From an uncultured Alphaproteobacteria bacterium (GTDB lineage Bacteria; Pseudomonadota; Alphaproteobacteria; RF32; CAG-239), in contig CALXUP010000007.1 in assembly GCA_944391715.1 (NCBI GenBank), positions 1-64,000 on the forward strand: DNA of 64,000 nucleotides. The letters are read 5' to 3'. A model generated the notes under the pieces. The model was not told the origin of the DNA. It did not search any database and saw only the letters and a list, made by a program, of their open reading frames with translations. Positions within the stretch are counted from its first letter, which is position 1. Each line of letters opens with the position of its first letter. Made by a program: the position numbers and the translations under genes. Below are positions 1,922 to 11,890 of the stretch, in pieces.

Positions 1922-1957
1922 ATAAAAAAAAAGCCTCTTTTCAGAGGCTTTTTTTTA
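1922..1957. terminator. Bidirectional terminator between the LprI-like gene and msbA
   Basis: AAGCCTCT (1931-1938) pairs with AGAGGCTT (1943-1950), flanked by A-runs and T-runs, so it can terminate the rightward gene ending at 1908 and the leftward msbA ending at 1955. Confidence 0.85.
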
Positions 1958-3718
1958 TCGCAGCTGCGTGCGGTAAAGCGATGCATAAATGCTGTCTTCT
2001 TTTTGCATCAGTTCGTCATGGCTGCCGATTTCGGCAATTTCGCCATAATTTACAACAACGATTTTATCCGCATTCCGGACGGTAGACAGGCGATGTGCAA
2101 TAATAAACACGGTCCGGTCTTTCATCAGGTTATCAATAGCCTCTTGCACAACAGCCTCTGACTTATTGTCCAATGCCGATGTGGCCTCATCCAAAATGAC
2201 AATCGGGGCATTTTTGATAAAGGCACGGGCAATGGCAATACGCTGTTTTTGACCGCCGGAAAGCAAAACGCCGCGCTCGCCGATTTCGGTATCAAGTCCT
2301 TTTTCCAGTCCGGAGATAAACTCTTCCAGGCAGGCGCTCTTAACGGCTTGCCGGATTTGTTCCTCACTTGCGCTTTCATCTCCCAGCAGGATATTGTCGC
2401 GGATTGTGCCGGCAAAAAGGAAATTATCCTGAAAGACAATAGCGATTTTATCCCGCAGGGAATTTAGTTCCAAATCCCGGACATCGACTCCGTCTATCTT
2501 GACGGCGCCGGATTTAACATCATAAAACCGGGGCAGAAGGTTAACCATTGTTGTTTTTCCGCCGCCGGAATTGCCGACGAAAGCGATTGTCTCCCCTACC
2601 CTGACTTTCAGCGTAACATCTTTTAAAACCGGTTTGCCTTTTACATATTCAAAACAGACATGGTCATATAAGATTTCATTTTTTACTTCTTTCAGAACCT
2701 TGGCGTCCGGTTTGTTATGAATGGCCGGCTGCTGTTCCAGAAGCGTAAACACACGCTCCATGGCCATCAGCGCCATTTGCACGTTGTTATAATTGTTGCC
2801 GATGGATTTTATCGGATTGTACAGCATAATCAGCGCCGTAATGAAAGATACGAAGTTTCCGGCCGTGATTTCGTGGTGAACAATCAGATAGCTGCCGAGC
2901 CAGATAACGCCGGCAATACCAAAGGAAATGACCAGGTGCATCAACGGCGACATCATTCCCGTCCGCTGGATCATCTTTATGCCCATTTTGAAAACGGTAT
3001 GCAGCGTGCTGCGAAAGCGTTTGCCCTGGTAGTCATAAAGATTATAAGACGTAATAATCCGGTTGCCGGCGAAAGTTTCATTATAATGCGTCATTACGGC
3101 CGAACCGGAAAAAATGGTCTTGTCCATAACGGATTTTATGCGGCGGCGAACCGTTGTCAGCGGGTACAGCGCACCCAACAAAACAACAACGGCGACAATT
3201 GCGAGCTGCCAGGAATTGTAAAACAGGACGCAAATCAGAGAAACGGACGAAAAAACCCGGGTTGTGAACAGTTTCATATTTGAAAGCAAACCGTTGCAGG
3301 CCAAATCAACATCCTGATTGAACCGGAACTGGATGTCTCCGGAATTTGACTTGTCAAAATATGAGGCATCGTAAGTCATCAACTTGTCAAACAAGTCTAT
3401 TTTCACGTCATTGGCGATTTTGCGGCCGACCCAGGTGTTCATATAAGTTGCGGTATAGTTCAACAGGCTTTGTAAGGTGCTGAACAGAATAATCAACAGC
3501 GGAATATAAGATGTTGCCGAGGTGCTTTTTTCCACCATAACAACATCCATGTAAGGTTTGAGCGACCACGCGATGACAGCATCCATCGAGCCGATCGGGA
3601 TTGTGATTAAAACGGCAAGAAGCGCCCTGACCCAATAGGGTTTGATATAAGGCAGCATTTTGCGATAGTTTTTAACAATATATAAATTGTTAAATTTTTC
3701 TTTTATTTTTGCAAGCAT
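1955..3718 (-). CDS. msbA: Lipid A/LPS-type ABC exporter, MsbA family
   Basis: A 587-aa half-transporter with an N-terminal six-helix ABC exporter membrane domain (about residues 25-315) and a C-terminal ATPase. The ATPase shows Walker A GNSGGGKTT, Q-loop VFQDNFLF, signature LSGGQ, Walker B IVILDEA and switch His in IIAHRLS. MsbA-type proteins form homodimers in the inner membrane and flip lipid A-core or related amphiphiles at the cost of ATP. The place at the end of an O-antigen/LPS sugar cluster fits that role. It has its own predicted promoter in the 85-bp gap after the FkbM gene, so it need not depend on the upstream AT-rich operon. The family is certain; the substrate is inferred from context. 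Confidence 0.88.
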   Translation of the reverse strand: MLAKIKEKFNNLYIVKNYRKMLPYIKPYWVRALLAVLITIPIGSMDAVIAWSLKPYMDVVMVEKSTSATSYIPLLIILFSTLQSLLNYTATYMNTWVGRKIANDVKIDLFDKLMTYDASYFDKSNSGDIQFRFNQDVDLACNGLLSNMKLFTTRVFSSVSLICVLFYNSWQLAIVAVVVLLGALYPLTTVRRRIKSVMDKTIFSGSAVMTHYNETFAGNRIITSYNLYDYQGKRFRSTLHTVFKMGIKMIQRTGMMSPLMHLVISFGIAGVIWLGSYLIVHHEITAGNFVSFITALIMLYNPIKSIGNNYNNVQMALMAMERVFTLLEQQPAIHNKPDAKVLKEVKNEILYDHVCFEYVKGKPVLKDVTLKVRVGETIAFVGNSGGGKTTMVNLLPRFYDVKSGAVKIDGVDVRDLELNSLRDKIAIVFQDNFLFAGTIRDNILLGDESASEEQIRQAVKSACLEEFISGLEKGLDTEIGERGVLLSGGQKQRIAIARAFIKNAPIVILDEATSALDNKSEAVVQEAIDNLMKDRTVFIIAHRLSTVRNADKIVVVNYGEIAEIGSHDELMQKEDSIYASLYRTQLR

Positions 3719-3803: not shown

Positions 3804-4727
3804 TTAATATACCTCGCAAATAAGCAATGTTTCAGATAATATTTGCCCATCTACTGGTTTATGAATATCGAACTTGTATCCTAAATTTAAATTTTCTATA
3901 AAGGGTTTTATATCATAGAAATCGGAATAGTTATGATAAATGCTGATTAATAAAATAGGTTTTTGTTTTTTTATCGTTTGGATTGCCCCCTTCAGAAAAT
4001 TTTGTTCAAATCCTTCAATGTCGACTTTTATCAAACCAACTTTTATATTATTCCGTTCTACATAATCATCTAATGTTGTTACTGTTACCTCTTCTTCAAT
4101 TCCTGTAAAATTGTGTTTAAAACTAGAACCTGAGCCACAAATTGAAATTTTTATATTTTCATTTTTATCACCTAAAGCCATATTTTCGATGACAGTGTCT
4201 TTTATATCGTTTAATTGTATAGTTTTTTTTATAAGATGGATGTTTTCCATCACTGGTTCGAAGCTGTAGATTTGATTTTTTAAATATTTTCTGAAAATAA
4301 GTATAGAATCTCCAATAAAACCTCCAACATCAATAATAGCTTTATTACCAATTTCATTTAAGGTTTTTAAATGAGAAAGATTATGCTCTGAAATAAAAAC
4401 GCTATTTTCAAAGTGATTTATTGGTAAAATCATATTATTAAATTCAAAATTTCCATCTTTTCTTTCTCTTATTCCATTTTTTAATGTATTATTTGCATTT
4501 GTAAATTCTAAAATCTCATCAGAAGAAAATAAATCATTTTTGTTCTTGATTGACTGGTTGGCAATTAATTTTAAACGATTAACTATCGTTTGAAATTTTT
4601 CTGCTACCATAGTATCTAAATTTTTTAGTAAAATATCTAATTTTACTTTGTTACGTTTAGAAAATTTTACAAATTCTTGTAGATAGCGATATTCGGATGG
4701 AGAAATTTGTATACCAGTACTACACAA
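3804..4727 (-). CDS. FkbM-family methyltransferase
   Basis: 307 aa. The SAM-binding core sits in the middle: DVGGFIGDSILIFRKYL (motif I, about residue 137), a SFEP acidic turn, and the post-core stretch IKVDIEGFEQNFLKGA that is characteristic of FkbM methyltransferases. These enzymes O-methylate sugars or other small acceptors, and in surface-polysaccharide loci they typically decorate a sugar residue. The first possible start is TTG at 4727, directly after an in-frame TAG, only 8 bp after the stop of the glycosyltransferase gene. The true start may be further in. The preceding gene ends in a G7 tract, but no slip there would join the two frames. The segment is AT-rich like its neighbours. 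Confidence 0.8.
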   Translation of the reverse strand: MCSTGIQISPSEYRYLQEFVKFSKRNKVKLDILLKNLDTMVAEKFQTIVNRLKLIANQSIKNKNDLFSSDEILEFTNANNTLKNGIRERKDGNFEFNNMILPINHFENSVFISEHNLSHLKTLNEIGNKAIIDVGGFIGDSILIFRKYLKNQIYSFEPVMENIHLIKKTIQLNDIKDTVIENMALGDKNENIKISICGSGSSFKHNFTGIEEEVTVTTLDDYVERNNIKVGLIKVDIEGFEQNFLKGAIQTIKKQKPILLISIYHNYSDFYDIKPFIENLNLGYKFDIHKPVDGQILSETLLICEVY

Positions 4728-4735
4728 CTATTGAT

Positions 4736-5743
4736 TTACCCCCCCATTTTATCGCCTTTTCCTTTTAGGGCAAATTTTATTCCTAAGATTTTAATTACTT
4801 TTTTCCCTGTTTTTCTTTTTAAAGAAAATAATGGTATGCCAAACAGACGGAATTTCTTTTTGTTGTTATTATTTTTGTAAAATAAACAATGTAATAATTT
4901 TTTAAAGATAGGTGTTTGAGTTTTGGGTTTTGTAAATTCTTTAATCTTTTTCATAGTATATTTATATTTTTTTGTAGATCTTAATTTTTTTAAATAATGA
5001 TGCCAGATTTTTGCATTTTTCCCATCCCTAAATTCCCATGGTTTGGGGTATGAAGCATAATGCAATACACAAATATTAGATGTACTTTCATGGGGGGGGG
5101 TATCACAAGTGTAAAAATTATAAATATTTAAATAATTGTATTTTTGGGGTAAAGAAACAACATTTTCTGCAAAAACAACATTAAAAACGTCATTATCCAT
5201 ATATTTTAAACTTTTATTCTGAAATTTTTCATTTATTAATTTTTCATAATAATTTTCTTTTCTTAACTTTGATAGATTCAATAATAATACACCTGAATTG
5301 AAATAATTAGTTAATCCCAGACGTTCATTATCCTTCCAATAATTATGAAAAACGACTCCCGCACAATATCCTGTCAGATCTGTGTTATATAGGGAACTTA
5401 AATCTTCTTGAACTATGACATCACTATCCAAATATAAAACTTTACTCAATTTGTTCAAAATTTCCGGCAAATCAAATTTAAACAATGCCGTTGGAGTAAC
5501 ATAATAGTTGTTGTTAACACGATTATATTTTTCAGATTTTTTGATAATATTTATATTTACGTTCTTTGTTTCTAATTTTTTTAAATCATTGAGCTGTTTT
5601 TCTGGAACATCTACACATAAAATATTAATCTGATATTTTGATGAAGGAGCTTTATTCTCTATAGCACTGTAAATAGCGACCAAAGTAATTGGTGCATATT
5701 TGGCATCTGTGATAAAAGCTAAATTAATTATATTGTTTTTCAT
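4736..5743 (-). CDS. GT8-family glycosyltransferase with internal G/C9 tract
   Basis: 335 aa. The N-terminal GT-A fold has the opening FITDAKYAPITLVAIYSAI, the metal-binding motif YLDSDVIVQEDL (DxD, about residue 102) and FNSGVLLLNL, all typical of GT8 LPS galactosyl/glucosyltransferases such as RfaJ/LgtC types. The C-terminal 60 residues are basic and contain two copies of a K-x-F/I-LFGIPLF-like motif often seen on LPS glycosyltransferases, probably for membrane attachment. Codons for DTPPHE contain nine consecutive C on the coding strand (5,092-5,100). Loss or gain of one base would truncate the protein, so expression may be phase-variable. The stop codon sits in a second tract, G7. It starts 1 bp after the upstream gene, implying translational coupling. 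Confidence 0.85.
   Translation of the reverse strand: MKNNIINLAFITDAKYAPITLVAIYSAIENKAPSSKYQINILCVDVPEKQLNDLKKLETKNVNINIIKKSEKYNRVNNNYYVTPTALFKFDLPEILNKLSKVLYLDSDVIVQEDLSSLYNTDLTGYCAGVVFHNYWKDNERLGLTNYFNSGVLLLNLSKLRKENYYEKLINEKFQNKSLKYMDNDVFNVVFAENVVSLPQKYNYLNIYNFYTCDTPPHESTSNICVLHYASYPKPWEFRDGKNAKIWHHYLKKLRSTKKYKYTMKKIKEFTKPKTQTPIFKKLLHCLFYKNNNNKKKFRLFGIPLFSLKRKTGKKVIKILGIKFALKGKGDKMGG
4739..4745. repeat. C7/G7 homopolymer at the end of the GT8 gene
   Basis: Seven G on the coding strand give the last codons ATG GGG GGG TAA. Slippage would only add a few residues before TAG in either other frame, so it could alter the tail but not fuse the gene to the FkbM gene. Confidence 0.8.
5092..5100. 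repeat. G9/C9 homopolymer inside the GT8 glycosyltransferase
   Basis: Nine G on the + strand (nine C on the coding strand), currently in frame (acc ccc ccc cat). Tracts of this length in surface-glycan genes are classical sites of slipped-strand mispairing. The surrounding region is about 70 percent AT, which makes the tract stand out. Confidence 0.9.
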
Positions 5744-5744
5744 T

Positions 5745-6848
5745 TTAATCTCCTATTTTATTTTTAAATAACGGTAAAAAATTCTGTTTCAGTATTTGTT
5801 TTACATAATCATCTTTAAAATTATGAAGTATTTGTGTTTGGCGAGTTTTTATTTCTTGGATAAACTCATAATCATCAGATAAAATTCTTTTTATTTTTTC
5901 TCTCGCTTCTTCAAAACTATGACATAGTCCAGGCTGTTCTGTTCCGCCTAAATCCTCCAACTCGCCACCATCCATGTAAATTACTGGAACACCCATTATA
6001 ATTGCTTCCAGCGGGTGATAATGGAGATGCCGTTTCTCTTGTGAATGATAAAAAAGAACTGCGTTGTCGATCAAATATTTGTCATATTCTTCACGTGGAA
6101 GATAACCTGTTACCTGCTTATCTTTATATTTTCCACTTTGTTTTCCTAAAATTATATGTGATATATCTGAGAAATTTTGTTTGAATGTTTTGTATACTTT
6201 TTCATAGTATGGATTGTCAATTAATGAACAAACGAAAGCAACTCTTTTTTCTTTACCATTCCACATATTCTGTTTTTGCCATATTGCCTGAGGAATACCA
6301 ATTGGCAGATAAACAGAATGTTTTTTGAAAAAAGGTGTTTCATTATCTATTATTTTTTCATAACTAACACCTAAGTAAAAACGTTTTCCCATTTGATAAA
6401 GGCATTTTGTCATTTTATTGTAATAACGTAAAATTTTTGGTTTAAACAGTTTCCTTATACCTGAGAACTCAGGGCTTTGTATTGTCATACTTTCATAAGT
6501 TTTATCGCCTTCATAACCAAAGGCTCTTATCATAAATAAATTTTGATCAATCTCTGCCATTTTAAATGCTAAAGGATACAGGTTGGGAACGATAATCATA
6601 TCAAAATTTTTATTGATAATCTTAGATAATTCTGGTGTTATCTCATCTGTATAAAAATTTGTTCTATTCAACTTAGCTAAATCTTCTTTTGATATAGTTA
6701 ATGTTTTGTCAAACTTATAAGTCATTGAAGAGAAATGAATATCCTTATGTTCTTTAGACAAGAATAATTCAAATCCTAAATTTTCAAGTAAGACACACTC
6801 ACTTTCCAATAACGTCACATGATTTATTAAATATAAAATTCTAGGCAT
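5745..6848 (-). CDS. GT-B type glycosyltransferase, putative
   Basis: 367 aa from the ATG at 6848 (MPRILYLINHV). A TTG 21 bp further upstream would overlap the previous gene and is less likely. The C-terminal half looks like a GT-B glycosyltransferase: YYEKVYKTFKQNFSDISHIILGK, then HYHPLEAIIMGVPVIYMDGGELEDLGG, which matches the sugar-nucleotide loop with the conserved Pro-Leu-Glu-Ala of GT4-like enzymes. The N-terminal acceptor domain is diverged. The start codon lies 1 bp past the stop of the upstream glycosyltransferase, so the two are co-translated. Donor and linkage cannot be told; transfer of perosamine or a core sugar onto the O-antigen is plausible from context. Confidence 0.7.
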   Translation of the reverse strand: MPRILYLINHVTLLESECVLLENLGFELFLSKEHKDIHFSSMTYKFDKTLTISKEDLAKLNRTNFYTDEITPELSKIINKNFDMIIVPNLYPLAFKMAEIDQNLFMIRAFGYEGDKTYESMTIQSPEFSGIRKLFKPKILRYYNKMTKCLYQMGKRFYLGVSYEKIIDNETPFFKKHSVYLPIGIPQAIWQKQNMWNGKEKRVAFVCSLIDNPYYEKVYKTFKQNFSDISHIILGKQSGKYKDKQVTGYLPREEYDKYLIDNAVLFYHSQEKRHLHYHPLEAIIMGVPVIYMDGGELEDLGGTEQPGLCHSFEEAREKIKRILSDDYEFIQEIKTRQTQILHNFKDDYVKQILKQNFLPLFKNKIGD

Positions 6849-6849
6849 A

Positions 6850-8094
6850 TTATTTTTGTCTTTCTTCAAAAATCTCTAAATATTGTTCTGCTACATTTTT
6901 CCAAGTATAATTTTGTAATGCCTCTTTAGAAACACGGACATTTTCTTTTGCCAATTCGGGATTATCAAGCAGTTTTATTATAGCGCGTGCAATATCATGA
7001 GAATTTTTAGGATCAAATAATTCTGCTTTGACTCCTAATTTATCTATTTGATTTTGGAATGCAGGAATATTGCTCATTACTACAGGCACTCCCATATCCC
7101 AGGCATCAAGTCCAGAACCATTTCCGGCCTCGCATAGCGATGCATTTATAACCATTTTGGCGTTTTGCATCAATGTAGAAAACTCTTCTCCTGATAGGAG
7201 CCCTGTTGATTTGATATCATAATCTTCTTGATTGTTTGTATGATCCATATAGTATGGGGTATTAACTTTTCCCAAAATATCATTATTCCCGTACCCTGAA
7301 AGTATTAGTTTTAGATTTGGATATTTTTGCTTCACATAATACCAAGCACCTAAAACATTGATAAAGTTTTTATGAGGTCCAACGTTACTGGCAAACAGAA
7401 CATATTCGTCTTTAATATGTTCCCGTTCAAAAAAATCTTTGGCCTGGTTGGGCGGTAAACTTGGAAAATCGTTTAATGTTGACAAGTAAACGACATGAGG
7501 TTTTTCCTTACTATTAGGAAATGTATGGTTAAACTCATCTTTAATATAATCGGAAGAAACAATCGGAACAGCTCCTTTTTGCACGAAAGTTTCATGTTCT
7601 TCCAAAGTCGTTTTCCAATAGTTTTTATTATAAAATCCTATTCCTTCCATTCCCCAACTATGTGTATAAATAAAGTCATGCGGAATAAAAAATATTGTTT
7701 TACTTACTTTGGGAGCTTTGATCCGATATGGCCATGCATAAAGAATAACATCTTTATCTTCTAGAAAACTTTCAAAAGATTTATCCTCTTTCTTTCGGAA
7801 AAAATTTTTTAAATTATATATAATTCTTCTTATTTTATTTGAGAATTTATTAATTTTTTCATTTTTAAATTTCTTTTTTTCAACAAACTTTTTGACTTCT
7901 AATTTATTAGGCATTGGACAAACGGCAATATCATAGCTTTTCATTTTGTTAAAAATATCTTCAGCCCCTTCGATTTCCTTAAAAAATACAGTAATTTCTA
8001 TATCAGAACGAAGTTGTTTTAAAGCATTTGAAAGTTTGGCGACATATCTCCAACCGCCAGTTGATGCAATTTGATTTACAATAGCTATTTTCAT
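6850..8094 (-). CDS. Family 4 glycosyltransferase
   Basis: 414 aa with a GT-B fold. Residues 1-20 hold the start IAIVNQIASTGGWRYV, comparable to the G-G-x-x-R/Y loop of GT4 enzymes. The C-terminal Rossmann domain has YVLFASNVGPHKNFINVLGAW (the N/P-x-KN region), LILSGYG, the segment STLMQNAKMVINASLCEAGNGSGLDAWDMGVPVVMSNIPAF with the donor-binding EAGNGSGLDAW, and AELFDPKNSHDIARAI. It probably adds a mannose- or perosamine-type sugar in the O-antigen. It starts 1 bp after the acetyltransferase gene. It lies in the AT-rich part of the cluster, with many AAA/TTT codons unlike the flanking housekeeping genes, which suggests horizontal acquisition. Confidence 0.82.
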   Translation of the reverse strand: MKIAIVNQIASTGGWRYVAKLSNALKQLRSDIEITVFFKEIEGAEDIFNKMKSYDIAVCPMPNKLEVKKFVEKKKFKNEKINKFSNKIRRIIYNLKNFFRKKEDKSFESFLEDKDVILYAWPYRIKAPKVSKTIFFIPHDFIYTHSWGMEGIGFYNKNYWKTTLEEHETFVQKGAVPIVSSDYIKDEFNHTFPNSKEKPHVVYLSTLNDFPSLPPNQAKDFFEREHIKDEYVLFASNVGPHKNFINVLGAWYYVKQKYPNLKLILSGYGNNDILGKVNTPYYMDHTNNQEDYDIKSTGLLSGEEFSTLMQNAKMVINASLCEAGNGSGLDAWDMGVPVVMSNIPAFQNQIDKLGVKAELFDPKNSHDIARAIIKLLDNPELAKENVRVSKEALQNYTWKNVAEQYLEIFEERQK

Positions 8095-8095
8095 T

Positions 8096-8686
8096 TTATC
8101 TTATCTTTCTAACAGGATTTCCTACATAAGTTCCGGCTTTTGTGATATCTTTTATTACGACAGCACCGGCGCCAATTATTACATTTGAGCAAATATGCAC
8201 AGAATCTTTTATTGAAGCCCCTACTCCAACAAAGACATTATCTCCAACTGTTGTTCTGCCGCAAATTGTTGCATTAGGCGCAATATGGCAGAATTTGCCA
8301 ACAGAAACTTCATGCTCAATCACGGCATGTGTATTTATTATAGTACCTGTGCCTATTTGGCTTTGCGGTCCGATATGCGCGCAATGCGCAATAAAACAGC
8401 CGTCTTGCAATATTGCGCCTATGCCAATATGCGCAGTTGTTGCTACAACGGAACAAAGTTTGAGGTTTTGGCTTAATGCTTTTCTTTTTGCATTATCTCC
8501 GACAGCAACAAAATATATTTCGGCTTTCGGACACTCGGATACGACATCAAAATCAAATAATTTTTCATTGGGTTGCGCATTTTCATCAACAAAAACCAAT
8601 TTTGCATCCGGATTATTATGTAAAATAACATCAGCGACACTTCGGGCATGGCCTCCGCAGCCAATAATACATACGGTATTTTTCAT
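8096..8686 (-). CDS. PglD/NeuD/PerB-type sugar O/N-acetyltransferase
   Basis: 196 aa. The N-terminal PglD-type substrate domain begins CIIGCGGHARSVADVI (GxGGHxR). From about residue 85 to the end the hexapeptide repeats of a left-handed beta-helix run through the catalytic-type HAVIEHEVSVGKFCHIAPNATICGRTTVGDNVFVGVGA, with the usual ending GTYVGNPVRKIR. Members acetylate UDP- or GDP-amino sugars with acetyl-CoA. Because a perosamine synthase and gmd lie just upstream, GDP-perosamine N-acetyltransferase (PerB of Caulobacter) is the best guess. The start overlaps the acyltransferase stop by 4 bp. Confidence 0.82.
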   Translation of the reverse strand: MKNTVCIIGCGGHARSVADVILHNNPDAKLVFVDENAQPNEKLFDFDVVSECPKAEIYFVAVGDNAKRKALSQNLKLCSVVATTAHIGIGAILQDGCFIAHCAHIGPQSQIGTGTIINTHAVIEHEVSVGKFCHIAPNATICGRTTVGDNVFVGVGASIKDSVHICSNVIIGAGAVVIKDITKAGTYVGNPVRKIR

Positions 8687-9729
8687 TGCTTTCCCTTTAA
8701 TCTCTTGAGTATCGGTTGTTCAATAACATAGTGCAGAAACAATGAAGCCGCGATTGTCCAGACCGTTGCTGCACCGACACAGACAAACCAATTTGGAATT
8801 ACGGCATATAAATTTGCCATAATTACATAGCCGCAAACACCATGGATTACATAAATCGGATAAGACAGTTTGTTGATAAATTTGAAGAATTTCGTATCGG
8901 CTATTTTTTTTATAACATTCTTGTTTCTCAGAGCATAAAGTCCCCCGAAAACTATCAAGGCATATTCATAATTGATCACGGCCAGCTTAAATTTCTCCGG
9001 ATCCAAGCGTTTGTATTTATAATAAAAAGCATAAAAACCTAATGCAACAACGGAAATAAATTGCTTAAGACTATATTTTCCCAAATACAAATTTGCAAAA
9101 CAAACCCCAATCAGTATGTAAAACAAACAAAAAAACATCCAATAAGTCTTAAATACTAAGCCTAAAACCAATAAAAGCACCATATTCTCAAATTTTTCCA
9201 ATGGGAAATATTTGTTGAATATTGAAACGACAATATAAAAGACAACCAGGCATTCCAGATACCAGCTAATTCCGTCTACGCTGGGAATCCCGGAAAAAAA
9301 CGGCCGAAATAATGTGGCTGTCACAAGAATATCTTTTAAAGAATAGATAAAGGTATCGGTTGCGTGAAAATTATACATCCAAAGCATGGTAATACATACC
9401 CCCCCCCAGTATATTGGATAGATACGTATTGCCTTTCTGGAAAGAAATTCTTTTATGTCTTTTGTTTTTTCCACTGAAAAAACGAATAAAAATCCACTGA
9501 TCAGAAAAAATAATGCCACACCAAACGGCCCTAAATTTAATTTCAGGGCGGTTACGGTATTGCATAGAAAATTATACCAGTCACTGCTATAGGCGACTGC
9601 CGGTGTTAAAAACAATTCTTGTACGATTTTATTTTTTTCCCAAAACAGAAACACAATGTGTGAACAAAAAACACTTATTGTTGCCAGGACACGTACAATC
9701 ACCAGAAAATTTATTTGCTTATTTTGCAT
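8683..9729 (-). CDS. Acyltransferase-3 family membrane protein with G9 tract
   Basis: 348 aa from the ATG at 9729, which has GAGG just upstream; a TTG at 9741 is less likely. About ten hydrophobic helices, an early catalytic-type His in FCSHIVFLFW, and GPFGVALFFLISGFLFVFS followed by RKAIRIYPIYW mark the OafA/NodX-like acyltransferase-3 family, which O-acetylates surface sugars from the inner membrane. The IYWGGVC codons contain nine consecutive G (9,399-9,407 on the + strand as C), a likely phase-variation tract that would switch off O-acylation when shifted. The start overlaps the perosamine synthase stop by 11 bp. Confidence 0.85.
   Translation of the reverse strand: MQNKQINFLVIVRVLATISVFCSHIVFLFWEKNKIVQELFLTPAVAYSSDWYNFLCNTVTALKLNLGPFGVALFFLISGFLFVFSVEKTKDIKEFLSRKAIRIYPIYWGGVCITMLWMYNFHATDTFIYSLKDILVTATLFRPFFSGIPSVDGISWYLECLVVFYIVVSIFNKYFPLEKFENMVLLLVLGLVFKTYWMFFCLFYILIGVCFANLYLGKYSLKQFISVVALGFYAFYYKYKRLDPEKFKLAVINYEYALIVFGGLYALRNKNVIKKIADTKFFKFINKLSYPIYVIHGVCGYVIMANLYAVIPNWFVCVGAATVWTIAASLFLHYVIEQPILKRLKGKQ
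9399..9407. repeat. C9/G9 homopolymer inside the O-acyltransferase
   Basis: Nine C on the + strand, read as TGG GGG GGG GTA in the gene and at present in frame. Same length as the tract in the GT8 gene 4.3 kb away. Confidence 0.9.
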
Positions 9730-10810
9730 AAAACCTCGCAATTTGACTGCAAATATGGTCGATATCCTGTTCTTCCAATCCTGGGTAAGACGGAAGGTTC
9801 AAGCCGCGAGCCGAAATATTTTCAGCGACAGAAAGAGATAAAAAACGCCGATTATATATTGGCATTTGGTGGATGCATGGAAACAATGGACGGGTTTCTA
9901 TGCCATTATTTTTTAAATATTCACGCAATGCGTTTCTTGTTTGATTATCTTGCGTCAAAACAGATATCATCCAATAAGAATGATAAACATCAGAACTTTC
10001 TTTATGAATTTCCAATGGAAGCGTAGAAATTTTTTCTTGATACCATTGAGCAATTTGATGTTTTTGCTTAAGAAATTTATCAATCTGTTCCAATTGCGCT
10101 AATCCGATGGCCGCCTGTATATTGGTCATCCGATAATTAAATGCTGCTATATCATGCCAATATTCTTTCCAATTTACAACACCTTGCCCTTTCATATGTT
10201 CGACTCTTTCATGCAAATCATCATTGTTGCACATAACCATTCCGCCTTCACCACAAGTAATCGTTTTATTTCCAAAAAATGAAAAACATGAAATATCCCC
10301 AAATGATCCAGCTTTTTTCCCCTTATATTCTGAACCGATGGCCTCTGCACAATCTTCTATAACAAAAATATTATTATCACGTGCAATTTTGAGAATTTTA
10401 TCCATATCACACGGATGTCCATATAAATGAACAACAACAATAGCTCTTGTGGCTGAAGTGATTTTTGCCTTAATATCCTTTGGATCCATTTGCCATGTAT
10501 CTTTAAGACTATCACAAAATACTATTTTGCAACCTAATTGAAGGAATGGATTTGCTGAGGCAATATATGTAAACGACGGAACAATTATTTCATCTCCGTT
10601 TCCAAGTCCAAGTGCGGCCCCGGCTAAATGCAACGCAACGGTCCCGTTACAGACTGCTGTTCCATGTTTTACACCAATATAATTCGCAAATTTTTTCTCA
10701 AACTCCTTTATAAAACGCCCTTTAGAAGAAATCCATGTACTTTCTAAGCATTCATTTACATATTTTTTTTCATTTCCCGTTAGACTTGGTTGATAGACAT
10801 TATATTTCAT
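9719..10810 (-). CDS. per: GDP-perosamine synthase (DegT/DnrJ/EryC1/StrS aminotransferase)
   Basis: 363 aa, full length for sugar PLP aminotransferases. It opens YQPSLTGNEKKYVNECLESTWISSKG, has the cofactor region GTAVCNGTVALHLAGAALGLGNGDEIIVPSFTYIASANPFLQLG, VIEDCAEAIGSEYKGKKAGSFGD, and the PLP lysine in CFSFFGNKTITCGEGGMV. It ends with the usual RPLFPCIHQMP and LPSYPGLEEQDID. With gmd immediately upstream (4-bp gap), the product is most likely GDP-4-keto-6-deoxymannose 4-aminotransferase, making GDP-perosamine from glutamate. Other 4-keto sugar substrates are possible, but gmd linkage favours perosamine. Confidence 0.87.
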   Translation of the reverse strand: MKYNVYQPSLTGNEKKYVNECLESTWISSKGRFIKEFEKKFANYIGVKHGTAVCNGTVALHLAGAALGLGNGDEIIVPSFTYIASANPFLQLGCKIVFCDSLKDTWQMDPKDIKAKITSATRAIVVVHLYGHPCDMDKILKIARDNNIFVIEDCAEAIGSEYKGKKAGSFGDISCFSFFGNKTITCGEGGMVMCNNDDLHERVEHMKGQGVVNWKEYWHDIAAFNYRMTNIQAAIGLAQLEQIDKFLKQKHQIAQWYQEKISTLPLEIHKESSDVYHSYWMISVLTQDNQTRNALREYLKNNGIETRPLFPCIHQMPIYNRRFLSLSVAENISARGLNLPSYPGLEEQDIDHICSQIARFYAK

Positions 10811-10813
10811 ATC

Positions 10814-11890
10814 TTACCACTCCTTTGTTATTTGAATATTGTATCCATTATTGGCCAAAAATCTTTCTTTTTGATTCAGTTTCAAATCTTCTTCTACCAT
10901 TTCTTTTGCCAAAGACGCTAAATCATACTTCGGTTTCCAGCCCAATTGGGCGCGGGCTTTAGTGCTGTCACCAAGCAACAGCTCGACTTCTGCCGGGCGG
11001 AAATATTTAGGATTAACGGCGATAACGGTTTTGCCTGTCTTTTTATCAATACCTTTTTCGTTTACGCCTTCGCCCAGCCATTCAATCTCCATTCCTAATT
11101 CTTTGAAAACCAAAGTGCAAAAATCGCGGATAGATGTCGTAACACCGGTGGCCAAAACAAAATCTTCCGGCTTGTCCTGCTGTAAAATCCGCCACATGCC
11201 TTCGACATAATCTTTGGCATGTCCCCAGTCGCGTTTGGCATTCAAATTTCCCAAATATAAGCAGTCCTGCATTCCCAAAGAAATACGAGCCGCAGCCAAG
11301 GTAATCTTACGCGTGACAAAAGTTTCTCCCCGGCGTGGGCTCTCATGGTTGAATAAAATGCCGTTAGCAGCAAAAATGCCAAAACTTTCGCGATAATTTA
11401 CGCAGATCCAATAAGCATACAACTTGGCAACGGCATACGGAGATCGTGGGTAAAACGGTGTTTTCTCGGATTGCACAGGTTCTTGGATCAGACCGTATAA
11501 CTCGGAGGTAGACGCCTGATAAAATTTTGTTTTCTTTTCCAGTCCGTTGATCCTGATTGCCTCCAGCAGGCGCAACGTGCCCAGAGCATCTGTATCTGCC
11601 GTGTATTCCGGACAATCCCAAGATACTTTTACATGGCTTTGCGCGGCGAGATTATAGATTTCATCCGGCTCGATTTCTTTTACCAGGCGGATCAGATTGG
11701 TGCTGTCTGATAAATCTCCGTCATGCAAATGAAGCTTTTTATTGTCTTGCAAATGATCAATTCGCGATGTGTTGAATGAAGATGAGCGCCGTTTGAGGCC
11801 ATGGACTTCATATCCTTTTCCTAATAATAATTCCGTTAAATATGATCCGTCCTGGCCGGTGATACCGGTAATTAAAGCTACTTTTGTCAT
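10814..11890 (-). CDS. gmd: GDP-mannose 4,6-dehydratase
   Basis: 358 aa. An extended SDR with NAD(P)-binding motif [37 protein letters not shown], catalytic STSELYG and YxxxK in [17 protein letters not shown], plus [12 protein letters not shown] and the [17 protein letters not shown] signature of GMD. It converts GDP-D-mannose to GDP-4-keto-6-deoxy-D-mannose, the precursor for perosamine, fucose or rhamnose. No fucose (wcaG) or rhamnose (rmd) reductase is seen here; the aminotransferase is next, which points to perosamine. It is less AT-rich than the downstream glycosyltransferases. Confidence 0.95.

Follow-up and report, generated by a model that had tools for sequence, protein, structure and literature searches.

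Candidate phase-variation tracts of nine G/C bases in a surface-glycan locus of an uncultured gut alphaproteobacterium

The surface-glycan locus

The window, that is the whole 64-kb stretch of DNA analysed here, carries a surface-glycan cassette which is bounded by genes for an MsbA-like ABC transporter and GDP-mannose 4,6-dehydratase (gmd) and lies about 7 kb from alaS. The relatives of this alaS belong to uncultured gut Alphaproteobacteria, including Azospirillum sp. CAG:239 and bins from deer, goat and buffalo. All the genes of the cassette are on the minus strand. The transporter gene (1955-3718; TIGR02203 2.9e-154, below cut-off) is conserved, marks the left edge of the variable cassette and is adjoined by a gene encoding an FkbM-family methyltransferase (3804-4727; PF05050 7.2e-16, TIGR01444 over cut-off). 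The next gene (4736-5743) encodes an LgtC-like GT8 glycosyltransferase (Glyco_transf_8 2.4e-42) whose best PDB match is Neisseria LgtC (5e-15), and its membership of the family is clear from the PF01501 profile, with 145.7 bits against a cut-off of 24.3 over model positions 1-250 of 253. Two further glycosyltransferase genes were found, one with a weak GT4-like match (5745-6869; PF00534 3e-5, below the gathering score) and one of the GT4 family (6850-8094; PF00534 3.7e-15), along with a gene for a sugar N-acetyltransferase of the NeuD/PglB/VioB family (8096-8686; TIGR03570 over cut-off). Gene 8683-9741 encodes an acyltransferase-3 membrane protein, a putative O-acyltransferase (Acyl_transf_3 1.2e-21), which belongs to PF01757 with 77.6 bits against a cut-off of 31 over model positions 3-324 of 326. 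A perosamine-synthetase-like DegT aminotransferase gene (9719-10810; best PDB matches to perosamine synthetases, 1.5e-108) and gmd (10814-11890; TIGR01472 566.9 bits, cut-off 415) complete the cassette. The gmd gene, the perosamine synthetase-like gene and the sugar N-acyltransferase gene are thus all present at the locus, as in a perosamine-type O-antigen set, and this gene content suggests that the locus makes GDP-N-acylperosamine for O-antigen.

Homopolymeric tracts within the coding sequences

On the plus strand, positions 5092-5100 read GGGGGGGGG and positions 9399-9407 read CCCCCCCCC; each is a pure homopolymer of nine and not a mixture of G and C, and no other G/C homopolymer of at least eight bases occurs in the window. 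On the coding (minus) strand the first is a C9 tract in the GT8 gene (ACC CCC CCC CAT, T-P-P-H), near residue 215 of a frame that is open to its full length of 335 aa, and the second is a G9 tract in the acyltransferase-3 gene (TGG GGG GGG GTA, W-G-G-V), the frame of which is likewise open over its full 352 aa. Both genes are therefore ON and their domains are full length. Between 4 and 10 kb the GC content per 2-kb bin is 26-37%, compared with 43% for the whole window. By translation, a one-base slip cuts the GT8 product at 217-218 or 250 of its 335 residues and the acyltransferase product at 122-135 of 352. The original prediction, which described uninterrupted nine-base G/C tracts in frame within an AT-rich stretch, both genes ON and either protein truncated by a slip of one base, is borne out in all these respects.

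Alignment of the GT8 protein to Neisseria LgtC places the HY..KPW segment after the tract, so that a slip removes it. In the structure of LgtC the His of this segment is a metal ligand, and with this residue lying downstream of the tract the OFF products should be inactive.

A G7 run (coding strand) also lies in the last codons of the GT8 ORF (4739-4745, minus strand). It was considered as a switch for a GT8-FkbM fusion in the window genome and rejected, as a nearby stop is met in every frame across it; as judged from these frames the run looks inactive in that role. The third G9 of the genome (contig C4:66090-66098) sits towards the 3' end of a gene for a methyltransferase, and by translation a slip there would change the C-terminus alone. 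No full-length orthologue of this methyltransferase was found in the 49 family genomes.

The corresponding locus of sister species

The flanks of the locus have about 80-93% DNA identity in the sister species G005 and G006, and the right side likewise in G001, with the middle replaced. The MsbA-like transporter gene itself shows 81-84% DNA identity between the window and G005 and G006. The swapped cassettes at this locus are again tract-bearing and OFF alleles are among them. In G005 a G11 tract splits an acyltransferase-3 gene, the two halves matching model positions 3-143 and 159-325 in different frames, which makes it OFF, and a C9 tract at the same locus splits a hexapeptide-type gene. The G005 acyltransferase belongs to the family only distantly and has its tract elsewhere, and so the tract has a separate origin. 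In G006 a G9 tract occupies the position homologous to the G7 of the window, with 78% DNA identity around it, and puts the GT8 and FkbM domains into a single frame of 633 aa (L061:8615-10513). The nearest homologue of the window GT8 (44% identical), also in G006, does not contain the C9 tract, and no relative of the window acyltransferase was found among the 49 family genomes. A GT8 scan of genome contigs, made for strain comparison, found no relative.

As a separate observation, positions 1-326 of the window match the corresponding flank in both G005 and G006 several times, at overlapping sites and with 88-95% identity, and these matches point to a repeat at the locus's left border.

Are the tracts beyond chance?

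Pattern searches of the whole 1.55-Mb genome of the window (G000) counted 34 G runs of exactly six, 2 of seven, none of eight and 3 of nine. This spectrum is not that of chance, since a decaying chance series would not climb again at nine. Moreover, three of the five runs of at least seven in the genome sit inside 4.7 kb at the window locus (simulated P ~3e-4), and when the codons of the locus genes were shuffled synonymously the mean was 0.11 nine-runs, the observed two being reached in 1 of 2000 trials. Isolated G runs of at least ten are common in the class, being present in 80 of 114 Alphaproteobacteria genomes, and bare tract counts were rejected as evidence after this control. For this reason it is the clustering, the spectrum and the coding context that carry the argument, and not the presence of long runs. 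The two window tracts are not random.

The strongest alternative is that the glycan genes, being AT-rich and recently acquired, contain these G/C runs by chance, and that the runs are static or slow to change and serve no selected switching. It can draw on the small number of tracts of nine in the genome, the wide distribution in the class of long G runs in low numbers, the lack of conservation of the GT8 tract in G006 and the ordinary nature of the residues encoded, Pro-Pro and Gly-Gly. Against this stand the three clustered nine-runs in a genome with no eight-run, the outcome of the synonymous shuffle and, in sister species, independent tracts at this locus, some of them OFF, and we consider this explanation unlikely.

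Tracts across the family and two lengths in one assembly

G runs of at least nine were found in 31 of the 49 family genomes. Genus g5, a sibling of the window's genus, is the extreme case, with 51 such tract instances in G010 (32 G9, 16 G10, 2 G11 and 1 G12) and with 2, 0 and 2 runs of six, seven and eight in the 205 kb around the tracts. By frame, 17 of the 32 G010 tracts that are flanked on each side by 35 or more open codons are ON and 15 are OFF, the OFF set including gene junctions besides broken genes. The OFF state is secure for genes whose two halves lie in different frames and match a single family, and this holds for the DegT and N6 DNA methyltransferase genes of G010 and for the acyltransferase-3 gene of G005.

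The tract-bearing genes of G010 are mostly surface-glycan genes. Among the tract genes are GT2, GT4, GT6, GT10, GT11, WbsX, pyruvyl transferase, epimerases and aminotransferase, as well as NeuD-type and hexapeptide acetyltransferases, AlgX-type proteins, acyltransferase-3, KASIII, SDRs, methyltransferases, and N6 and C5 DNA methyltransferases. The N6 DNA methyltransferase genes of G010 (L081:10242-11029) and G049 (L068:8848-9649), which belong to different genera, are 85% identical over the downstream half. A G9 falls on the same codons in both and leaves each out of frame, in the opposite direction from the other; on this comparison their tracts look phasevarion-like. In G010 a C5 DNA methyltransferase gene (L095:2718-3767) also has a G10 near its start. 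Tracts are present as well in G010 genes of the fucosyltransferase families GT10 (L083:2802-3860) and GT11 (L059:19006-19998) and of GT6 (L059:18278-19060). These genes recall the fucosyltransferases that vary by phase in Helicobacter pylori, and host-like glycans are a possibility.

Two pairs of contig ends in the G010 assembly differ in the tract only. In the first pair, the start of C36 matches the reversed start of C18 over 94 letters (the tract collapsed to one letter), the sole difference being G10 and G9, respectively; this tract is inside an epimerase-family gene, which is in frame with G9 and out of frame with G10. The 104 letters common to the end of C22 and the start of C1 differ solely in the tract, G12 and G10, respectively, at a GT2-GT11 gene junction. 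A mixed population would cause the assembler to break at the tract and to retain both lengths, and these pairs appear to reflect mixed tract lengths in the population, though error is conceivable. G142, G012 and G007 also have poly-G close to the ends of contigs, but these cases were left out, as their coding context was doubtful or there was no partner contig to set beside them.

These allelic differences also bear on a second alternative, in which transcriptional or translational slippage on the tract gives two products per gene and there is no genetic switching. Homopolymers can indeed make RNA polymerase or the ribosome slip. However, the ON frame of the window genes is already full length, so that a slip would yield dead fragments only, and slippage in expression alone fails to explain the OFF alleles of relatives and the two DNA lengths at one site, which makes this explanation very improbable. 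Still less credible is that the tract lengths are assembly or sequencing errors, for although homopolymer lengths are error-prone and this is a draft genome of 35 contigs, both tracts are interior to a 68.8-kb contig, their full-length frames match the domains and comparable tracts occur in relatives that were assembled independently.

Proposed phase variation at the window locus

We regard it as likely that the two window tracts make these genes contingency loci, with phase variation of the simple-sequence-repeat type brought about by slipped-strand mispairing. As expected of such loci, C9 and G9 are uninterrupted in-gene repeats that reach the published cut-off lengths, they exceed what composition predicts by spectrum, clustering and shuffle, and by translation a change of one unit turns the product off. 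During replication, slipped-strand mispairing would add or remove single bases in the runs, and the change in length would reversibly shift the GT8 and the acyltransferase genes out of and into frame. The population would then be a mixture of surface glycans with or without the sugar added by GT8 and with or without the acyl group. The proposal further supposes that the window tracts slip at a useful rate, that GT8 and the acyltransferase may act on one displayed glycan, probably O-antigen with N-acylperosamine, and that variation would be selected by phage, host immunity or competitors. The four surface forms foreseen at the outset would require the two enzymes to modify one and the same glycan on the surface.

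The original prediction that phase variation is likely is partly supported. The indirect support is strong and comes from the enrichment and clustering of the tracts, from the tracts of sister species including OFF alleles, from the G7/G9 difference and from the mixed contig ends of G010, whereas the prediction is weakened by the absence of the GT8 tract from the nearest homologue in G006 and by the acyltransferase being without a relative in the 49 family genomes. Other points count against it as well. Nine bases is the lower end of the mutable range, both genes are ON, like any ordinary gene, isolated long G runs are common in the class and tracts of nine number just three in the window genome. 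In addition, mismatch repair is represented by mutS (mutS1) in G000 and in 48 of the 49 family genomes, and the loss of mismatch repair was rejected on the same grounds as the cause of the tracts.

Relation to known systems

The mechanism is already known and its host is apparently undescribed for it. In Helicobacter pylori homopolymer slippage switches LPS enzymes. Phase-variable fucosyltransferases of this species have been reported (PMC2583950) and tract-bearing genes of the GT10 and GT11 families are found in G010, whereas the window genes encode GT8 and acyltransferase-3 and the bacteria are of another class. For Neisseria the phase-variation cut-off is at least nine G, which the window tracts reach, and lgtA, lgtC, lgtD and lgtG are known, LgtC being among the listed phase-variable LOS genes and the best solved relative of the window GT8 (PMC5953494). 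Unlike this system, the tract of the window GT8 is C9 on the coding strand and the second window gene encodes an acyltransferase. In the Campylobacter poly-G phasome described with PhasomeIt (cut-off of at least seven) 53% of the tracts are of nine and 26% of ten (PMC6321876). G010 is similar, as poly-G/C tracts are mostly of nine and ten in surface-glycan genes (63% G9 and 31% G10 in G010) and ON and OFF alleles stand side by side between genes. Campylobacter is however of another phylum or class, and the window genome has 3 tracts of nine where G010 has about 50.

Among the Alphaproteobacteria, variation of a surface structure by slippage or recombination in long repeats has been proposed for badA of Bartonella henselae (PMC8859334). 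That case differs from the window in having long repeats in an adhesin gene and no homopolymer tracts in glycan genes. It is the nearest alphaproteobacterial case that searches of open-access papers brought up, and these gave no report of phase variation in this uncultured gut lineage, in agreement with the view that the phenomenon is rarely described in the class.

With moderate confidence we propose that an order of uncultured gut Alphaproteobacteria possesses a poly-G contingency system of its own that spans multiple loci. Its richest genus would have about 50 genes in the system, encoding glycosyltransferases (GT6, GT10 and GT11 among them), O-acyltransferases and phasevarion DNA methyltransferases and including fusion switches at gene junctions, and the window would represent a member with a small repertoire, whose O-antigen cassette can be swapped and comes with switches of its own. 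A 2025 review treats it as an open question whether phase variation at multiple loci occurs in pathogens only, and for this reason the result at the family level has greater interest than the two tracts by themselves. The question becomes directly testable from existing metagenomic reads through an apparently commensal gut lineage of which at least one genus has a repertoire like that of Campylobacter. If the proposal is true, the surface glycans of these gut bacteria would vary within a host, which bears on the pressure exerted by phage, antibody and competitors.

Other tract arrangements

Besides the G006 tract between GT8 and FkbM domains, junction tracts were seen in G010 at L059/L080 (contigs C22 and C1) and at L058:7333-8950. 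These are possible phase-variable gene fusions, in which one length would fuse GT8-FkbM or GT2-GT11 and another would separate them. In G040 two tandem and near-identical genes of AlgX/DHHW type (L060:1548-3364 and L060:3462-5284) have a G11 at the same place and both are out of frame.

A different arrangement was observed in G195, from another alphaproteobacterial family, where at least seven loci have the intergenic motif TCATCTATAAAAACAT-G(12 to 16)-CATATTTGTAACAAAAG. These include L242, L247, L249, L250, L252, L258 and L260, with most of the tracts near contig ends, and the right half of the motif alone is present at two further loci (G16 and G21). Twice, a gene whose start resembles a signal peptide (MEGSMKKFLLF...) begins 50 bases from the motif on the opposite strand. 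The motif looks like a multi-copy promoter with a poly-G of variable length, as in phase variation of the promoter type.
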